Shown piece after piece: positions 2,114 through 21,818 of a stretch of DNA of 38,265 bases (its first letter is position 1; every line of letters begins with the position of its first letter). The position numbers and the translations under genes are program-made. The stretch covers positions 1 through 38,265 of the IMG/VR virus record IMGVR_UViG_3300017963_000472; one strand, written 5' to 3'. Under the pieces are notes generated by a model. The model did no database searches. It worked only from the letters and a program-made list of their open reading frames with translations, and had not been told where the DNA came from. This DNA comes from a virus.

Positions 2114-2398
2114 ATGACCGACCTAACGGACTTGTATAAGATCACAATTATCGAAGAAAGCACAAACGTCATCTCTCGTGTCTCCAGCGTCAGAGTTGAT
2201 GACAAGCTGGAGACTGCAATCTTCATCCATACCAAGGTTCAGCCAGAAGATGAGCTAGTTTCAACGATTGAAGCAAAAAATCTTTCAGAACTAGCTCACA
2301 ATCATATTGAGTTAGTGACATTAATGGAGAAGAAACTCGCTGAACAAAAAATCGATTACAATAAGTCCGAAATATTCGGCAAACTCGCGCAAAACTGA
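2114..2398 (+). CDS. hypothetical protein upstream of the ribozyme
   Basis: This 94-residue protein has a good ribosome-binding site (GGAAGGAAGAG before ATG). The N-terminal half alternates hydrophobic and polar residues (YKITIIEEST, SRVSSVRVDD, AIFIHTKV), suggesting a small beta-sheet domain. The C-terminal half is helical and charged. No family is recognised. Its last sense codon and stop (AAC TGA) lie inside the 5' strand of stem I of the hammerhead ribozyme at 2393, so ribosomes terminating here could unfold the ribozyme, and cleavage would leave this mRNA with a defined 3' end. Confidence 0.6.
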   Translation: MTDLTDLYKITIIEESTNVISRVSSVRVDDKLETAIFIHTKVQPEDELVSTIEAKNLSELAHNHIELVTLMEKKLAEQKIDYNKSEIFGKLAQN

Positions 2399-2451
2399 CT
2401 GAAGAGCTGGTGAAACTCCAGCGAAACTTACTGCAATAGTAAGTCTCAGTT
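2393..2451 (+). ncRNA. type I hammerhead ribozyme
   Basis: All expected elements are present in the correct order. Stem I 5' strand AACTGA (2393-2398) pairs perfectly with TCAGTT (2446-2451). The core is CTGAAGA (2399-2405). Stem II is GCTGG/CCAGC (2406-2410/2418-2422) with a 7-base loop and the canonical G10.1-C11.1 pair. GAA (2423-2425) follows. Stem III is ACTTACT/AGTAAGT (2426-2432/2438-2444) with loop GCAAT and the canonical A15.1-U16.1 pair. The cleavage triplet is GTC (2443-2445). Cleavage is predicted after C2445. Both ends enter through stem I, so the topology is type I. No invariant core base is missing. Hammerheads are known in some phage genomes; their role there is unsettled. Confidence 0.92.
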
Positions 2452-2686: not shown

Positions 2687-4708
2687 ATGCTAGCTGAACC
2701 AGCCCAACAGTTGATGGATTTCGTCCCGTTCCGGGATATGATGAACGAACACTTCAAAACGGTAATGGATGACAATGAGCTTTACGAAGTTGATGTCTCG
2801 AAGGAAGAAATGTGGGATACGTATCTCAACTCTTTTCCGCCGGGAACGAACCCGATATTTCGTGAACGCACTGAACATGATTGTTCCTGTTGCCGCACTT
2901 TTATCCGTGATTTGGGCAACGTGGTTGCTATTCACGATGAAAAAGTTATAACCATCTGGGAAATCGACAATCTCGAAGAGCCATATCACACAGTTGCACA
3001 GAAAATGGACGAACTGATTCGTTCAAAACCAATTCGTTCAGTTTTCTATCACTATCAGAATAAAGTAGGCACTCATCACAATCGTGAAGACATGGGTGAT
3101 CACATTCATACATGGAATCACTTTTATTGCGAACTAAATAATCGTCATGTAGTTCACAAAGCTGCATTAGCTACGAAACGTGGGCACGAAACTTCATTAA
3201 AAGAAGTCACACTACGTTCGCTACGTGAAATTACAGTCGATGCAGTCGAAACAGTACTTGATCTTATCAAACAAGGTTCGCTGTATCGCGGAGAAGAACA
3301 TCGCACAAAAGTTAGCTCATTTCTGACATTTAAACGTTATTTCGATACTCTTGCTGCTGACAAAAAAGAACTATTTGCATGGTCAATTCAAAATTCAAAT
3401 GCAGCTATCCGTAACACAGTTATCGGAACATTGCTGGTTGACTTATCTGAAGGCGTAGACCTTGATACGGCAGTAACATCATTTGAGCAAAAAGTTGCTC
3501 CTACTAATTACAAACGACCTAAAGCTCTTATCACACCTAAGATGGTGCGAGCAGCTGAAAAGAAAGTTAAAGAACTGGGTCTCACAGATTCTCTACCACG
3601 ACGACATGCCAAGGTATCTGATCTAACTATCAACGCAGTTCACTGGGCTGATCGTTCAGTTAAACGTGAAATGTCTGTATTTGACGAAATGGCTCAGCAG
3701 GCTCATACAACTCAGAAAGATCTTTCTAAAGTTGAAAAAGTATCTATCAAACATTTCATTCAAGAAATTTTGCCAAACACTACTTCTCTTGAAGTAATGA
3801 TGGAAAACCAACATGTTAGTAACTTGATGAGCTTACTTGCTCCAGTATATCCGGATGCTAAACCACTATTTCACTGGGACAGCAATTTTTCCTGGACATA
3901 TAACGGTGAAGTAGCTGACTCAATCAAAGAACGAGTTAAAGCTGCTGGTGGCACAGTTACTGGCCTCATGAGAGCATCACTTGCTTGGTTTAACTATGAT
4001 GATTTGGACATTCATGTTCAAACACCAGCTGGCGATCATATTTATTACGGTAACAAGAGTACCAAACACGGCGAGCTTGACGTAGATATGAATGCTGGAA
4101 GTGGTAAATCACGTAACGCAGTTGAAAACGTTACATGGGGAACAAAATCCAATCTACAAGAAGGTCGCTACAGAATCTGGGTTAATAATTTCCAGAAACG
4201 AGAAACTGAAGATATTGGATTTACAGTTGAACTGGAATATGGAGGTGTAATACACACATTCCATTACAACAAAGATGTTCCTGATAATGGCAATGTTGTT
4301 GTAGCTGAATTTGATTTCACATATAAAGAAGGCATCAAATTCCGCAAATCATTGCAATCTACCGCAGCTCCACGAACTGAATGGGAAATAACTACAACAA
4401 AGTTTACACCAGTTCGTATGGTCCTTAACTCTCCTAATTATTGGGGAGAACAAGGAATCGGAAACCATCATTTCTTTTTTATCCTTGATGGTTGTCGTAA
4501 CCCAGATTCAGTTCGTGGATTCTTCAATGAATATTTACGCTCAGATTTAACTGATCATCGTAAAGTTTTCGAAACACTCGGTGCAAAAATGAAAGCACCA
4601 TATGACGAAGAACAGCTAAGTGGACTTGGTTTCTCATCCACTCAGCGTAATGAACTGATTTGCCGCGTCAAAGGCACGTTTAACCGCACTGTAAAGGTAC
4701 AATTCTAA
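2687..4708 (+). CDS. large conserved phage protein with YfaP/DUF2135-like domain
   Basis: This 673-residue protein has AAGGAG upstream of its ATG. The N-terminal ~110 residues include HDCSCCRTF, a possible metal-binding Cys cluster. Residues ~120-400 are helical. Residues ~430-550 contain LDIHVQTPAG, IYYGNK, GELDVDMNAGSG, ENVTW and GRYRIWVNNF; this resembles the DUF2135/YfaP beta domain, where an Asp-rich stretch suggests metal binding. The last ~100 residues (FFFILDGCRNPDSVRGFF) look like a separate conserved tail. I recall similar long proteins next to a homologue of the following gene in other phages, but no function. Its leader is the ribozyme-released RNA. Transcription probably continues into 4708, as the stop and start overlap. 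Confidence 0.75.
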   Translation: MLAEPAQQLMDFVPFRDMMNEHFKTVMDDNELYEVDVSKEEMWDTYLNSFPPGTNPIFRERTEHDCSCCRTFIRDLGNVVAIHDEKVITIWEIDNLEEPYHTVAQKMDELIRSKPIRSVFYHYQNKVGTHHNREDMGDHIHTWNHFYCELNNRHVVHKAALATKRGHETSLKEVTLRSLREITVDAVETVLDLIKQGSLYRGEEHRTKVSSFLTFKRYFDTLAADKKELFAWSIQNSNAAIRNTVIGTLLVDLSEGVDLDTAVTSFEQKVAPTNYKRPKALITPKMVRAAEKKVKELGLTDSLPRRHAKVSDLTINAVHWADRSVKREMSVFDEMAQQAHTTQKDLSKVEKVSIKHFIQEILPNTTSLEVMMENQHVSNLMSLLAPVYPDAKPLFHWDSNFSWTYNGEVADSIKERVKAAGGTVTGLMRASLAWFNYDDLDIHVQTPAGDHIYYGNKSTKHGELDVDMNAGSGKSRNAVENVTWGTKSNLQEGRYRIWVNNFQKRETEDIGFTVELEYGGVIHTFHYNKDVPDNGNVVVAEFDFTYKEGIKFRKSLQSTAAPRTEWEITTTKFTPVRMVLNSPNYWGEQGIGNHHFFFILDGCRNPDSVRGFFNEYLRSDLTDHRKVFETLGAKMKAPYDEEQLSGLGFSSTQRNELICRVKGTFNRTVKVQF

Positions 4709-5100
4709 TGAACATGTTTGAAGAAGCATCACGCTTGAAACTGCGTTTTCCATCACCGAAAGGTGCATTGACCGTTGAAGATCTTTGGGATCTGCCACTT
4801 ACTTCTACGCGAGCAGCATCACTAGATCTGGTTGCTAAGACAGTAAATCGTAGCTTGAAAGAACTGGATGAAGAATCTTTCGTAACTCCTGGTTCCAAAG
4901 CCAATACTGAAGAAACTCTGAAACTTGATATTCTCAAGCACGTAATTGCTGTTCGTCTTGAAGAGAACAAGCAACATCGTCTTGCGCTTGAAAATAAGAA
5001 AAAGAAAGAGCGCATCATGGAGATCATCAACACGAAAGAAGACGAAGCACTTGGTGCTAAGTCTCTTGACGAACTGCGTGATATGTTAAATGCCCTCTAA
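4708..5100 (+). CDS. conserved phage coiled-coil protein
   Basis: The ATG overlaps the upstream stop by one base (TAATG). The 130-residue protein begins with a compact motif (RLKLRFPSPKGALTVEDLWD, then PLTST) and ends in a charged helix rich in Lys and Glu. The ending EDEALGAKSLDELRDMLNAL is helical and amphipathic. The pattern FPSPxGxLTVEDLWDLPL is familiar from conserved hypothetical proteins of many tailed phages, where it accompanies a gene like its upstream neighbour. The two probably act together. No catalytic motif is visible. Confidence 0.75.
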   Translation: MNMFEEASRLKLRFPSPKGALTVEDLWDLPLTSTRAASLDLVAKTVNRSLKELDEESFVTPGSKANTEETLKLDILKHVIAVRLEENKQHRLALENKKKKERIMEIINTKEDEALGAKSLDELRDMLNAL

Positions 5101-5302
5101 GATGCATCCAATTGTCGAAGAGCAACTAAAAATTGATAGAGCTAAGCGACATAGGGAAACAATATTACGTAGATGGCAAAATGAAATGTTTACAACGTTA
5201 AACATGATTGCTGTTCTTTCTGAAGATTCTGGCCGCATGATGCGCGATGAAGCGAAAGCTCTTGTCCAGAAAATTTACAAAGATATAGATGAGTTTACGT
5301 GA
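5090..5302 (+). CDS. small hypothetical helical protein
   Basis: The frame overlaps the end of the previous gene by 11 bases. A second ATG at 5102 lies just after the upstream stop and is an equally possible start. The 66-70 residue product is charged and helical (EEQLKIDRAKRHRETILRR). No domain is recognised. It is the last gene before the second structured intergenic region. Confidence 0.6.
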   Translation: MPSKMHPIVEEQLKIDRAKRHRETILRRWQNEMFTTLNMIAVLSEDSGRMMRDEAKALVQKIYKDIDEFT

Positions 5303-5445
5303 TATAGCTACCCCAGCGGGCGGTGGGGCTAATAACACCCGCAGTGGTCACTGAGACCCTCTTCTCCTGCAGAGCAGGGACATCACGCTCAGGGAAACCA
5401 CCGAAGAAACCACGAGACGGTTAGTCCCGGCATGCTAGGCCGGGC
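5303..5445 (+). ncRNA. structured intergenic RNA region (candidate regulatory RNA)
   Basis: There is no credible gene. Pairings seen: CCCCA/TGGGG (5311-5315/5324-5328) interleaved with GCGGG/CCCGC (5316-5320/5338-5342), which must be a pseudoknot or two alternative hairpins; GTGGT/ACCAC (5344-5348/5397-5401); CTGAG/CTCAG (5351-5355/5388-5392) enclosing CCTGC/GCAGG (5366-5370/5374-5378); and CCCGGC/GCCGGG (5426-5431/5439-5444). The last hairpin sits just upstream of the Shine-Dalgarno at 5453, where it could regulate the HTH gene. I found no hammerhead core and no T-run. Confidence 0.5.
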
Positions 5446-5463
5446 ATGACTCAGGAGACCTCC

Positions 5464-5637
5464 ATGAATCGCGGCGAAGATCATCACAGTGCGCAGCTGA
5501 CAGAAGCGAAAGTACGTGCAATGCGTCGTCTTGCTGATCAAGGATGGAACGCAGGTTGTTTATCTCGTGCATATAAAGTGTCTTATAACACTGCATGGGA
5601 TGTAATTAATTACCTTACATGGAGACATGTACGATGA
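5464..5637 (+). CDS. small helix-turn-helix DNA-binding protein
   Basis: The start is set at 5464 because AGGAG lies seven bases upstream of it; the ATG at 5446 is upstream of that site and inside a hairpin. The 57-residue product reads SAQLTEAKVRAMRRLADQ, then SRAYKVSYNTAWDVINYLTW, then RHVR. It matches the small HTH found in phage regulators and in the DNA-binding tails of HNH endonucleases (AKLTExDVxxIR...S...I..G.TW.HV). It probably binds DNA. No nuclease domain is attached. The long structured leader suggests post-transcriptional control. Confidence 0.75.
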   Translation: MNRGEDHHSAQLTEAKVRAMRRLADQGWNAGCLSRAYKVSYNTAWDVINYLTWRHVR

Positions 5638-5674
5638 ACGACCTGTCCCCTTTTCCCTCATTGGAGAATAAGCT

Positions 5675-6439
5675 ATGCTTGTCGAGTCCCTACTAGACAA
5701 GGAATTCGACATGATTAAAGCTTGGTCGATGTCCCGAGCAGATATCTTCGAAAGCTGCCCTAAGCACGCTTATCTCAAATACGTTGACAAACTTCCTGAA
5801 CCAGATCGTGGTCCTCCCCCGAAAGGAATGACTGAATGGCATAACGACAGAGGATCACGCGTTCATGACGAAGCAGAAGCATATGTCAAAGGAAATCGAA
5901 ACGATCTTATCGCTGAATGCAAACACTTTGCCCCCGAATTTGAAAAACTACATAATCTTGAAAAAGCCGGAAAAGTCATTACAGAACAAGGCTGGGGTTT
6001 TACAGATAACTGGACCCCATGCGACTGGGATGACTACGATAATATCTGGTTACGCGTCATTATTGATGCCCTTGTCTTTCGCAACGATTACGAAGCAATA
6101 GTCATCGACTATAAAACAGGTAAACGTTATTACAATGAAGTAAAACATGGTAAACAGGTACAGTTATACCAACTTGCTACATTCATCAAATATCCAAAAC
6201 TTGAAAAAATAACAACTGAGCTTTGGTATTTAGATCAGAATGAACTATTTCGGCAGACATTCACTCGGCAACAAGGAATGCGATTCTTTGACACATTCAA
6301 CAACAAAGGCCGCGCAATCACTGAAGCTCGTGAATTTCCTGCCAATCCTGGCCGCGCTTGTTTTTTCTGTCCTTACAAAACAGGAATAATTGGCAAGCAA
6401 GGTCCTATGGGAACAGGTCACTGTTCTGATAATCCATAA
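5675..6439 (+). CDS. Cas4/RecB-like PD-(D/E)XK exonuclease
   Basis: This 254-residue protein carries the RecB/Cas4 nuclease pattern: SRADIFESCPKHAYLKYV near the N-terminus, a conserved His in GSRVHDEAE, an Asp in RVIIDALVF (~residue 131), then VIDYKTGK (~143-149) and KQVQLYQLATF. The C-terminal CFFCPYK (~229-234) and a final GHC, with the N-terminal Cys, resemble the four-Cys iron-sulfur cluster of Cas4 and AddB nucleases. Phage members trim DNA ends in recombination or replication. The SNF2 helicase encoded nearby is a plausible partner. The start at 5675 has TTGGAG upstream; an internal ATG at 5711, with AAGGAA upstream, would also keep all motifs. Confidence 0.85.
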   Translation: MLVESLLDKEFDMIKAWSMSRADIFESCPKHAYLKYVDKLPEPDRGPPPKGMTEWHNDRGSRVHDEAEAYVKGNRNDLIAECKHFAPEFEKLHNLEKAGKVITEQGWGFTDNWTPCDWDDYDNIWLRVIIDALVFRNDYEAIVIDYKTGKRYYNEVKHGKQVQLYQLATFIKYPKLEKITTELWYLDQNELFRQTFTRQQGMRFFDTFNNKGRAITEAREFPANPGRACFFCPYKTGIIGKQGPMGTGHCSDNP

Positions 6440-18605: not shown

Positions 18606-20741
18606 ATGAAGCTTGAAACTAATCAGCGCAACGTTGAAACCAGTGGTATTCAGGAATCTAACCGGTTTACCATTGAAATGAATTCGGCTGCTGTCGATAT
18701 TCTGTCTTCGAAGATCTACACTAATAACTATCTTGCTATCGTTCGTGAGTTGACTTGCAACGCTTGGGATGCCCATGTCGCTGCCGGAACAACTGACACA
18801 CCTTTCGATGTTATTTTTCCATCTACGCTGAAAAGCGATTTTCAAGTTCGAGATTACGGCACTGGCTTGTCTCACGACAATGTCATGTACTTATATACCA
18901 CGTATTTTGGCTCAGACAAGCGTAATAGCAATGATGCCATTGGCGGGCTTGGTCTTGGCTCCAAAGCTCCGTTTGCTTATACCGACGCATTTTCAGTTCG
19001 GTCTTTTTATAAGGGCACTGTTCGTACCTATGCAATTTATCGCGATGCTGATAACTTGCCAAAATGCGATCTTATGGATACATCACTGACAACTTTGCCT
19101 AATGGCTTAGAAGTCACAGTTCCGGTTCGCATCGAAGATGGCTATCATTTTCGGAAAGTAGCAAACCAAGCTTTGCAGTGGTTTCCTGTAAAACCTAATG
19201 TTTCCGGTGAAACTATTACTGATGTTGAATGGGAGCTAAAAACTAAGACATGTGGTCTTCTTAAAGATGATAGCCGATATGGCGATGCTCGCGCTCTTAT
19301 GGGCAGTGTCGTATATAACATCGACCGCAGCCAAGTTGAAGATAACGAATTCATAAAACTTAGCTCTGTAGCTTCAGCGTTGCTACGTGATAGCAACTTT
19401 GTTTTGTTTGCAAATATCGGTGATCTGTCTATTTCAGCTAGTCGTGAAGAACTCAACTATACAAAATCTACGCTGAAACATCTCGTAACATTGCTTGAAC
19501 GTGCTGCAACTGAAATTACTAACGAAATTAGCACTCGTTTGAAAGGTGAAGATCGCATTGCAGTAAGGTTTTACGAACGGGCTAAATTGCCCAAAGCAAT
19601 GCGAAATATCTTGTCAGTCGATAGTGATGTTATGCCACCTGCTGATGTCACGATTCGCGCAGCTGATAGTTCTACATGGCACCGATTAAATGGCTTTGCG
19701 ACGATCTCTACTCATTCTGTAACACTTCGTCATAACAAGCATCCAAATATCATCATTGATGATGTTGCAAAATCACCATATCGTAAGGTTATCATGGCAA
19801 ATAAGGAACTGCAGCCTGATAAGATTACGACACACGGTTGGTCTCGGAAATACAGCCAAGCTGATAAGGATGTATATATTCTAACAAGTGATGATTGGAA
19901 TCATGCAGACGTTAAAGAATTTATGCGTCAGTTTGATCCCAACTTTGTTTTTAAAATTTCAGATTACTATACGAAACCGGTTGCAGGTAAAGTTGGCGGA
20001 GGTGTTCGTACTCCTTATGTAAATCCTAAAGAACGTGAACGTGAACTTGGATTTAACGATACTGTACCGCGTGGCCGTTCTAAATATAACTGGAACAAGT
20101 TTACGACTAAACTCTCTGATCTTGATCCAGAAGAAACTATCCTTGTAGGTGTTAATGGTTCTCAAGCATGGAATCATGACGCAGATAAGGAATTTTCTTG
20201 GAAAGAAATTGACGTAGCGAATCGACTTATTAATGGCCAGCGTTTCGTAGCAATTAATAAAGCAATCTGGAAAACTGCTAAGAAACTAGGTGTTCCAACA
20301 CTTCAAGAATGGCTTCCTAAAGCTGTTCAAGAATATGTCGGTTCACTTACTCACGAACAATATCTCAAGGAAAAATATCCTTCAGAAGTACGTAATAGAG
20401 TACCAATACTGTATAAATTTATAAGCCACAGCAACGTCTGGAAAAATCATGCTCCAGATTCTCTGGTTCATATGATTTGTACAGAGCATGATGGAGTATT
20501 TAACAGCACCCAAGGTAGTGTAATTTTAGATATCGAAGCTTATCTTGGACGTAAATTATTTACCGCAAACGAGCAAGATTTAGATGAGTATATGCCTAGG
20601 CTGCATGGCGCAGATGAATGGCTTCGTGCAACTTATCCTGAACTTGCTAAATATCTCACGGAAAGCAGTTGGGTTCGCGTAGACGAAATGACTGCTCATT
20701 ATGTCAACCTCAAAGAAGGACTATACGAAGATGAGTGCTAA
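18606..20741 (+). CDS. rIIA: rIIA-like GHKL ATPase
   Basis: A 711-residue homologue of T4 RIIA, a membrane-associated protein needed for growth in lambda lysogens and affecting lysis timing in T4. The GHKL ATP-binding fold is visible: the N box RELTCNAWDAH (47-57), DYGTG (83-87) and the lid GGLGLGSKAPF (113-123), then FSVRSFYKGT. Length is close to the T4 protein. GGAG lies seven bases before the start. The end overlaps rIIB, as in T4. Its role outside T4-like phages is not settled; a link to superinfection or abortive defence is plausible. Confidence 0.92.
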   Translation: MKLETNQRNVETSGIQESNRFTIEMNSAAVDILSSKIYTNNYLAIVRELTCNAWDAHVAAGTTDTPFDVIFPSTLKSDFQVRDYGTGLSHDNVMYLYTTYFGSDKRNSNDAIGGLGLGSKAPFAYTDAFSVRSFYKGTVRTYAIYRDADNLPKCDLMDTSLTTLPNGLEVTVPVRIEDGYHFRKVANQALQWFPVKPNVSGETITDVEWELKTKTCGLLKDDSRYGDARALMGSVVYNIDRSQVEDNEFIKLSSVASALLRDSNFVLFANIGDLSISASREELNYTKSTLKHLVTLLERAATEITNEISTRLKGEDRIAVRFYERAKLPKAMRNILSVDSDVMPPADVTIRAADSSTWHRLNGFATISTHSVTLRHNKHPNIIIDDVAKSPYRKVIMANKELQPDKITTHGWSRKYSQADKDVYILTSDDWNHADVKEFMRQFDPNFVFKISDYYTKPVAGKVGGGVRTPYVNPKERERELGFNDTVPRGRSKYNWNKFTTKLSDLDPEETILVGVNGSQAWNHDADKEFSWKEIDVANRLINGQRFVAINKAIWKTAKKLGVPTLQEWLPKAVQEYVGSLTHEQYLKEKYPSEVRNRVPILYKFISHSNVWKNHAPDSLVHMICTEHDGVFNSTQGSVILDIEAYLGRKLFTANEQDLDEYMPRLHGADEWLRATYPELAKYLTESSWVRVDEMTAHYVNLKEGLYEDEC

Positions 20742-21540
20742 GATTCTCTCAGATACCACGGTAACCATTTTTCATAACGGCAACGTAACCACTGCGCATC
20801 GTAGCGATGCAAACTGGGATCGTGCTATCAAAGCTTTGCGAGAAGATGATTATGATCTCGCAATGGCTTTGCTGGATAAGCCGAAAGTTCTCCGTGAGTA
20901 TATGCACGGCTCAGGTTTGCGCCTGCAAGGCCGTGATGTGTTTTATGGCAAACATCAGCTTCCAGATGCATTGGCTCGCCGGATTCTGGAAATGCACGCT
21001 GCTGGATTCAGCATTACTCCAATGGAGCTGTTCGTTGAAAAGCTGTATCAGAACCCCAGTTATCGGGCTATCGCAGAAACGTACCGTTTCTTGGAACACA
21101 ACAAGCTGCCAATCACCGAAGATGGTGATTTCATGGCATACAAACGCATCAAAGCTAACTGGACTGATGTTTACACCGGTAAAATCAATAACCAGCTCGG
21201 TGCCGTTGTTGAAATGCCGCGTAGCCAAGTTGACGATGATTGCAATCGTACTTGTTCAAAAGGATTGCATTTTGCTAGCTTGGAATATTTGAGAAGCTAT
21301 AGTGGGCAAAAGCTAGTTGCGCTTAAGATCAATCCGCGTGATGTTGTTAGTATTCCGGTTGACTATAACAATTCCAAAGGCCGCTGCTGCCGGTATCAGG
21401 TAGTAGAAGAGCTGCCAATGGACTTGGTTAGTGGGAAAACCGATTACTGGGAACAGCCAGTTGTGGCAGGTTATAATGAACCGTATGACGATTACGGTAC
21501 GTATGCAACCTATCCGGAAGATGACGAGTACTTCCATTAA
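20731..21540 (+). CDS. rIIB: rIIB-like protein
   Basis: The start is at ATG 20731 (MSAKILSDTTVTI), overlapping the end of rIIA; the ATG at 20701 is inside rIIA. The 269-residue product carries the RIIB pattern: DGDFMAYKRI, a segment with DVYTGK, CSKGLHFASLEYLRSYSG, then INPRDVVSIPVDYNNSKGRC and CRYQVVEEL. In T4, RIIA and RIIB work together at the membrane. The adjacent, overlapping order supports assignment. The C-terminus is acidic and Tyr-rich. Confidence 0.9.
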   Translation: MSAKILSDTTVTIFHNGNVTTAHRSDANWDRAIKALREDDYDLAMALLDKPKVLREYMHGSGLRLQGRDVFYGKHQLPDALARRILEMHAAGFSITPMELFVEKLYQNPSYRAIAETYRFLEHNKLPITEDGDFMAYKRIKANWTDVYTGKINNQLGAVVEMPRSQVDDDCNRTCSKGLHFASLEYLRSYSGQKLVALKINPRDVVSIPVDYNNSKGRCCRYQVVEELPMDLVSGKTDYWEQPVVAGYNEPYDDYGTYATYPEDDEYFH

Positions 21541-21548
21541 GGATTGAT

Positions 21549-21818
21549 ATGCAATATGAGTTCCATACGACGCTACCAATTCAAAAACGGGATTCGAATA
21601 AAATTGAATACCCGTGGGTGGAAGCGATTCTAAGTTGGGACCAAGACCATTCATCCCCCCGAGTAACAGAATTCTATTGTGACGATCCAGCCATAATGGA
21701 ATTCTGGAACTCGGCGGGAGCGTCTTCTTTGGAAATGGCCTTACTTAGCGATGCAATTCGCCTGCATACTGCAGAAAATTTTGGGGACGACCCGAACCAT
21801 AACTGGAGTTCTTCATGA
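21549..21818 (+). CDS. hypothetical protein
   Basis: AAGGA stands just upstream of the ATG. The 89-residue product is acidic and aromatic (PWVEAILSWDQDHSS, DDPAIMEFWNSAG), suggesting a small beta-sandwich domain. No family recognised. Its stop overlaps the next small gene's start (ATGA). Confidence 0.55.
   Translation: MQYEFHTTLPIQKRDSNKIEYPWVEAILSWDQDHSSPRVTEFYCDDPAIMEFWNSAGASSLEMALLSDAIRLHTAENFGDDPNHNWSSS

Follow-up and report, generated by a model that had tools for sequence, protein, structure and literature searches.

A type I hammerhead ribozyme motif over a stop codon between two genes of a large tailed phage

What would a hammerhead ribozyme do between two phage genes, with the stop codon of the first gene inside one of its stems? 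The question is raised by a 38,265-nt stretch of DNA (IMG/VR record IMGVR_UViG_3300017963_000472, positions 1 to 38,265), hereafter the window; the record covers part of the genome of a large tailed phage. Our main reading, to which we give a probability of roughly 0.85, is that a type I hammerhead lies here between two co-directional genes and cuts their polycistronic message to gene-sized messages.

The motif and the genes around it

Read base by base, the locus resolves into the following elements:

2114-2398, +: 94-residue ORF, ending CAA AAC TGA (the flank and the 5' strand of stem I), with the TGA at 2396-2398
2390-2392, +: CAA flank directly 5' of stem I, aligned to the conserved [U/C]AA flank of related hammerheads
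2393-2398, +: 5' strand of stem I, AACUGA, with the UGA stop codon inside it (base reading, descriptor scan)
2399-2405, +: catalytic core C3-U4-G5-A6-N7-G8-A9, here CUGAAGA (base reading, descriptor, covariance model)
2406-2422, +: stem II, 5 bp, GCUGG (2406-2410) with CCAGC (2418-2422), loop UGAAACU
2423-2425, +: core G12-A13-A14, GAA (base reading, descriptor)
2426-2444, +: stem III, 7 bp, ACUUACU (2426-2432) with AGUAAGU (2438-2444), 5-nt loop GCAAU; A15.1-U16.1 is the first pair
2445, +: C17 (H17), with cleavage predicted between 2445 and 2446 from hammerhead chemistry
2446-2451, +: 3' strand of stem I, UCAGUU, the would-be 5' end of the downstream message
2452-2686, +: untranslated leader, 235 nt, GC-rich, with several local hairpins
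2674-2679, +: Shine-Dalgarno-like AAGGAG (sequence reading)
2687-4708, +: 673-residue gene, phrog_1735 (function unknown), common in large tailed phages

By motif and covariance model, 2393-2451 (+) is confirmed as a complete type I hammerhead ribozyme. The initial annotation had claimed as much, with stems of 6, 5 and 7 bp, and every core base and pair reads in place: CUGAAGA, GAA, the A2426-U2444 pair and C2445 (an H17 other than G) are present, all three helices consist of Watson-Crick pairs, and stems II and III are closed by loops while stem I is open. The TGA that it had placed inside the 5' strand of stem I is there too, and the motif supports its predicted cut after C2445, which would part two messages. 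Stem I usually has 5 bp in hammerheads with a 7-nt loop II; here it consists of 2394-2398 with 2446-2450 and one extra A-U pair. The loop UGAAACU and the AA-containing 5' flank are the family's usual ones, and the tertiary contact of loop II with stem I that serves fast cleavage at low Mg2+ may form here.

To scan both strands of the window we used a descriptor that required the invariant bases and, in each stem, 3 pairs or more. It returned exactly one match, with 19 total pairs (an eighth stem III pair being counted), whereas 200 dinucleotide shuffles yielded 0.015 loose matches per window and reached 11 total pairs at most. A covariance model, R1, trained on 18 hammerheads from other viruses and from prokaryotes with the window sequence left out, matches 2390-2453 at 63.6 bits (E 9.6e-17). 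The shuffles and this independent model refute chance similarity as the explanation of the motif, a reading that we find scarcely credible even with the Rfam scores that speak for it. The initial annotation had named the Rfam hammerhead models as a check. At gathering thresholds Rfam does not report the window hammerhead; the best match at relaxed thresholds, RAGATH-1-hammerhead (RF03152), reaches 20.2 bits against a gathering score of 56.3. We take this as a limit of the models, because other phage loci positive by the descriptor are likewise missed—some two dozen such hammerheads in six viral loci go unreported at gathering thresholds. Many phage hammerheads are passed over by Rfam thresholds. 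An assembly artefact is also unlikely, because a second IMG/VR contig (the twin contig), 99.95% identical over 3,966 bases, carries the hammerhead stretch unchanged, both differences lying outside it. Within the 38 kb no second hammerhead was found by the descriptor, or by model R1 up to E 10.

Relatives, covariation and folding

Relatives were sought with a pattern in which the core bases and UGAAA in loop II were fixed and no pairing was required of stems I and III. It was applied to IMG/VR and to bacterial and archaeal genomes; counts are of distinct matches among those listed. Stems I and III can pair in 72 of 106 and 77 of 108 matches (both among the matches listed) and in 31 of 39; with shuffled flanks the share is about 1%. 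Across the 18 sequences behind model R1, pairing holds in 98.5% of pair cells, and 12 of the 15 pairs have changed on both sides, a level of pairing reached by none of 500 shuffles; these rows were chosen by a pairing descriptor and are biased to structure, and the test by pattern only is the unbiased one. Directly before stem I, AA stands in 73 of 123 viral and 60 of 76 genomic elements among the matches listed; the window has CAA. The stem II and loop of the window recur, identical or nearly so, in 23 other IMG/VR stretches (24 were matched, one of them the twin contig), and these carry other stems I and III.

Several IMG/VR contigs (L149, L106, L119/L178, L128 and L126) carry type I hammerheads in groups of three to six, all on one strand and within a few kilobases, many of them between successive ORFs and often at the stop codon of the upstream ORF. 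Annotated cultured phages with tandem hammerheads were sought to check the gene calls; three of five queries were without a match, and Pseudomonas D3-like phages did match. In Pseudomonas aeruginosa D3-like phages (L150, L382) a hammerhead-like element has the stem II and loop of the window, with stems I and III predicted to be short, and sits upstream of a tRNA-Thr gene, between it and a CDS, well away from a stop codon.

The 94-residue ORF has no family match and no phage match. Relatives of the 673-residue protein, at about 50% identity, are found in large tailed phages, mostly with a short gap before the gene; at 80-odd loci with such relatives, no hammerhead or similar leader was found beside the gene. 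The covariance model searched against 18 records gave no credible match except in the twin contig, a hit in Klebsiella phage May (E 0.3) being at noise level. Because the relatives of the 673-residue gene are found without a hammerhead or similar leader, the element is a local acquisition or one that turns over fast. For the same reason, covariation was assessed from hammerheads at non-homologous loci, and these covary strongly.

The same distribution leaves no direct signal of selection at this locus, which favours reading the sequence as hammerhead-like but catalytically inactive, a relic or a misfolded variant. Folding gives this reading a further argument. The repeat ACUGACUGA permits a slipped register of stem I that draws the core CUGA into pairing; in plain folding without tertiary contacts the slipped register is predicted at -17.7 kcal/mol and the active one at -16.3, a difference of 1.4 in favour of the former. 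The repeat is found in none of the 231 other hammerheads compared. Stem I is also predicted weakly in several longer sequence contexts; for 16% of the other hammerheads, too, the predicted probability of stem I is at most 0.2. The slipped register could slow the ribozyme. We nevertheless consider an inactive relic unlikely: the core lacks no base, none of the three stems is disrupted, and loop II and the 5' flank are those usual in the family.

The downstream leader and its surroundings

The initial annotation had also described a dense RNA structure downstream of the ribozyme, and this is not borne out for the leader as a whole. The whole leader from the predicted cut, 2446-2686, folds no better than shuffles (MFE z = -0.89), its best 110-nt sub-window reaches z -2.4, and it has no Rfam match. 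No relatives of the leader were found by blastn in phages or plasmids, only noise-level matches were seen in 18 phage records, and exact 21-mers in IMG/VR recovered the twin contig only.

These results bear on a further reading, in which the ribozyme makes up a single unit with the 235-nt leader and cleavage frees a structured regulatory RNA, possibly one that acts on other phage messages. Positions 2475-2488 of the leader are perfectly complementary over 14 nt to 5653-5666, a segment that covers the GGAG ribosome-binding site of an exonuclease-like gene at 5675, and the predicted energy of the duplex is in the best 1% of 61-nt windows. A 14-nt match of this kind has an E of about 0.09, however, which makes chance quite possible; with no leader relatives in which conservation could be judged and with the unremarkable fold of the whole leader, we hold a regulatory unit of this kind to be very unlikely.

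Two other relations between the ribozyme and its surroundings were considered and set aside. The direct repeat GCAAAAC (2389-2395 and 2679-2685) might suggest a transposon-like origin; a 7-nt repeat is expected by chance at this length. Pairing of the 5' arm of stem II (2405-2412) with 2666-2673, before the ribosome-binding site, involves 8 nt and is likewise at chance level.

Other parts of the window deserve mention in their own right. In the same gene block, 5303-5464 is a GC-rich (60%) untranslated stretch directly after the stop of ORF 5090-5302; by eye it contains an H-type pseudoknot (CCCC/GGGG crossing GCGGG/CCCGC) and several hairpins. It has no Rfam match and no phage relative, and it may be another RNA element. 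Further along, 13191-15263 matches phrog_17, the family B-like phage DNA polymerase family, and homologues of the lysis-inhibition genes rIIA and rIIB are at 18606-21540. The most unusually stable fold of the plus-strand gene block (z -5.8), a long near-perfect hairpin at 21651-21760, is inside ORF 21549-21818, just after rIIB.

Stop codons, proposed message punctuation and known systems

The position of the stop codon was compared across the relatives. For each element, the upstream stop was taken as the end of the nearest same-strand ORF of at least 50 codons, by simple gene calling, within 300 nt. Among the matches listed, this stop falls within -16 to +2 of C3 in 72 of 111 viral hammerheads and 42 of 71 bacterial or archaeal ones; random positions in the viral loci have a stop in that range in 4.3% of cases. 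There are two peaks, at -8, where a UAA adjoins a 5-bp stem I, and at +1, where the UGA is that of the CUGA core. Stops in the frame shared by the UAA flank and the CUGA core make up 44 of the 72 and 25 of the 42, with one third expected—a bias with p of about 1e-6 (viral) and 4e-4 (genomic), whose true weight is lowered by shared ancestry among the elements. A stop at -3 from C3, as in the window, occurs in four other viral elements, and contig L149 holds several of the four. In 70 of 94 and 36 of 53 cases the ribozyme stands closer to the gene before it than to the one after it, also when 12 nt are set aside for a ribosome-binding site. Of the longest upstream ORFs examined, about half have a match in a known family, so many of the upstream genes are real.

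The initial annotation had called this placement over a stop codon unusual; it is instead the commonest arrangement, and a family-wide habit of such type I hammerheads in phages and prokaryotes. We regard this anchoring pattern as a more interesting outcome than the single hammerhead of the window. Its recurrence in two collections narrows the question of the role: such hammerheads look like gene punctuation in which the stop comes from the ribozyme itself. Stop codons are not mentioned in PMC3088659 or PMC6155905; these are part of a larger literature, and we do not claim that the anchoring is new.

The anchoring also raises the possibility that cleavage is gated by translation. With a ribosome halted at the UGA (2396-2398), stem I and the core would be covered and cleavage held back, and cleavage would then serve as a readout of upstream translation. 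Sterically, ribosome and ribozyme could plausibly compete at stem I; the stop overlaps stem I here, and both the concentration of stops near C3 and their preference for the UAA/CUGA frame agree with gating. The same pattern would arise, however, if compact genomes reuse the UAA and UGA of the ribozyme as stops to save space, and the nearest upstream stop is outside the -16 to +2 range in 39 of 111 and 29 of 71 cases. Compactness of phage genomes explains part of the anchoring, and a regulatory use is not separable from it by these data. We treat gating at this locus as possible but tentative. Its extension to the family—that the UAA flank or CUGA core doubles as a stop in prokaryotic and phage type I hammerheads, that the terminating ribosome gates cleavage and so links message processing to upstream translation, and that the window is an instance with the stop inside stem I—we consider doubtful.

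Punctuation of a polycistronic message, our preferred reading, would proceed as follows. The ribozyme would fold in the nascent transcript once the 3' strand of stem I emerges, and the folded ribozyme would cut after C2445. The upstream product would then carry the stem II and III hairpins and, just past the stop codon, a 3' end with a 2',3'-cyclic phosphate; the downstream product would consist of a 5'-OH end, a 241-nt leader and the 673-residue gene. Gene-sized messages with defined, decay-resistant ends would be the likely benefit. Judged by the general course of bacterial mRNA decay, ends with a hairpin and cyclic phosphate, and 5'-OH ends, would probably have protective value. Cleavage and benefit are what we infer, with the end chemistry taken from that of hammerheads, and co-transcription across 2393-2451 is assumed because of gene order, the promoter scan having covered the sigma-70 consensus only. 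In several contigs, L106, L119 and L149 among them, successive genes are punctuated by hammerheads.

The hammerhead of the window is a newly found example of a known phage element. What hammerheads do in phages and bacteria has been called an open question (PMC6155905). Cleavage in vitro is on record for tandem bacterial hammerheads and in vivo, in E. coli, for one triple array, and tandem prophage hammerheads have been argued to self-cleave polycistronic transcripts between genes (PMC3088659). The bacterial and phage type I hammerheads of Perreault et al. 2011 (PMC3088659) have the same core, three stems and type I permutation as the window; they are likewise intergenic in phage, where ribozymes flank single genes, and their chemistry does not differ, although a stop codon inside stem I is not discussed there. 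RAGATH-1-hammerhead (RF03152) shares the core and the arrangement of stems I and III, but the stem II and loop of the window are aligned to it only by an insertion. A more distant comparison is the discontinuous Clec2 hammerhead of mammalian 3' UTRs, which like that of the window lies downstream of a coding region; it differs in being type III, in belonging to an animal gene and in having stem I strands 150-1500 nt apart (PMC6155905). The hammerhead variant of haloviruses HF1 and HF2 resembles the window in standing at the 5' end of a phage message, in their case ahead of an early gene, and the 5' end of the HF1/HF2 transcript maps at most 3 nt from the cleavage site (PMC3088659). The cut in HF1/HF2 is 13 nt before the start codon, whereas in the window it would leave a leader of 241 nt.
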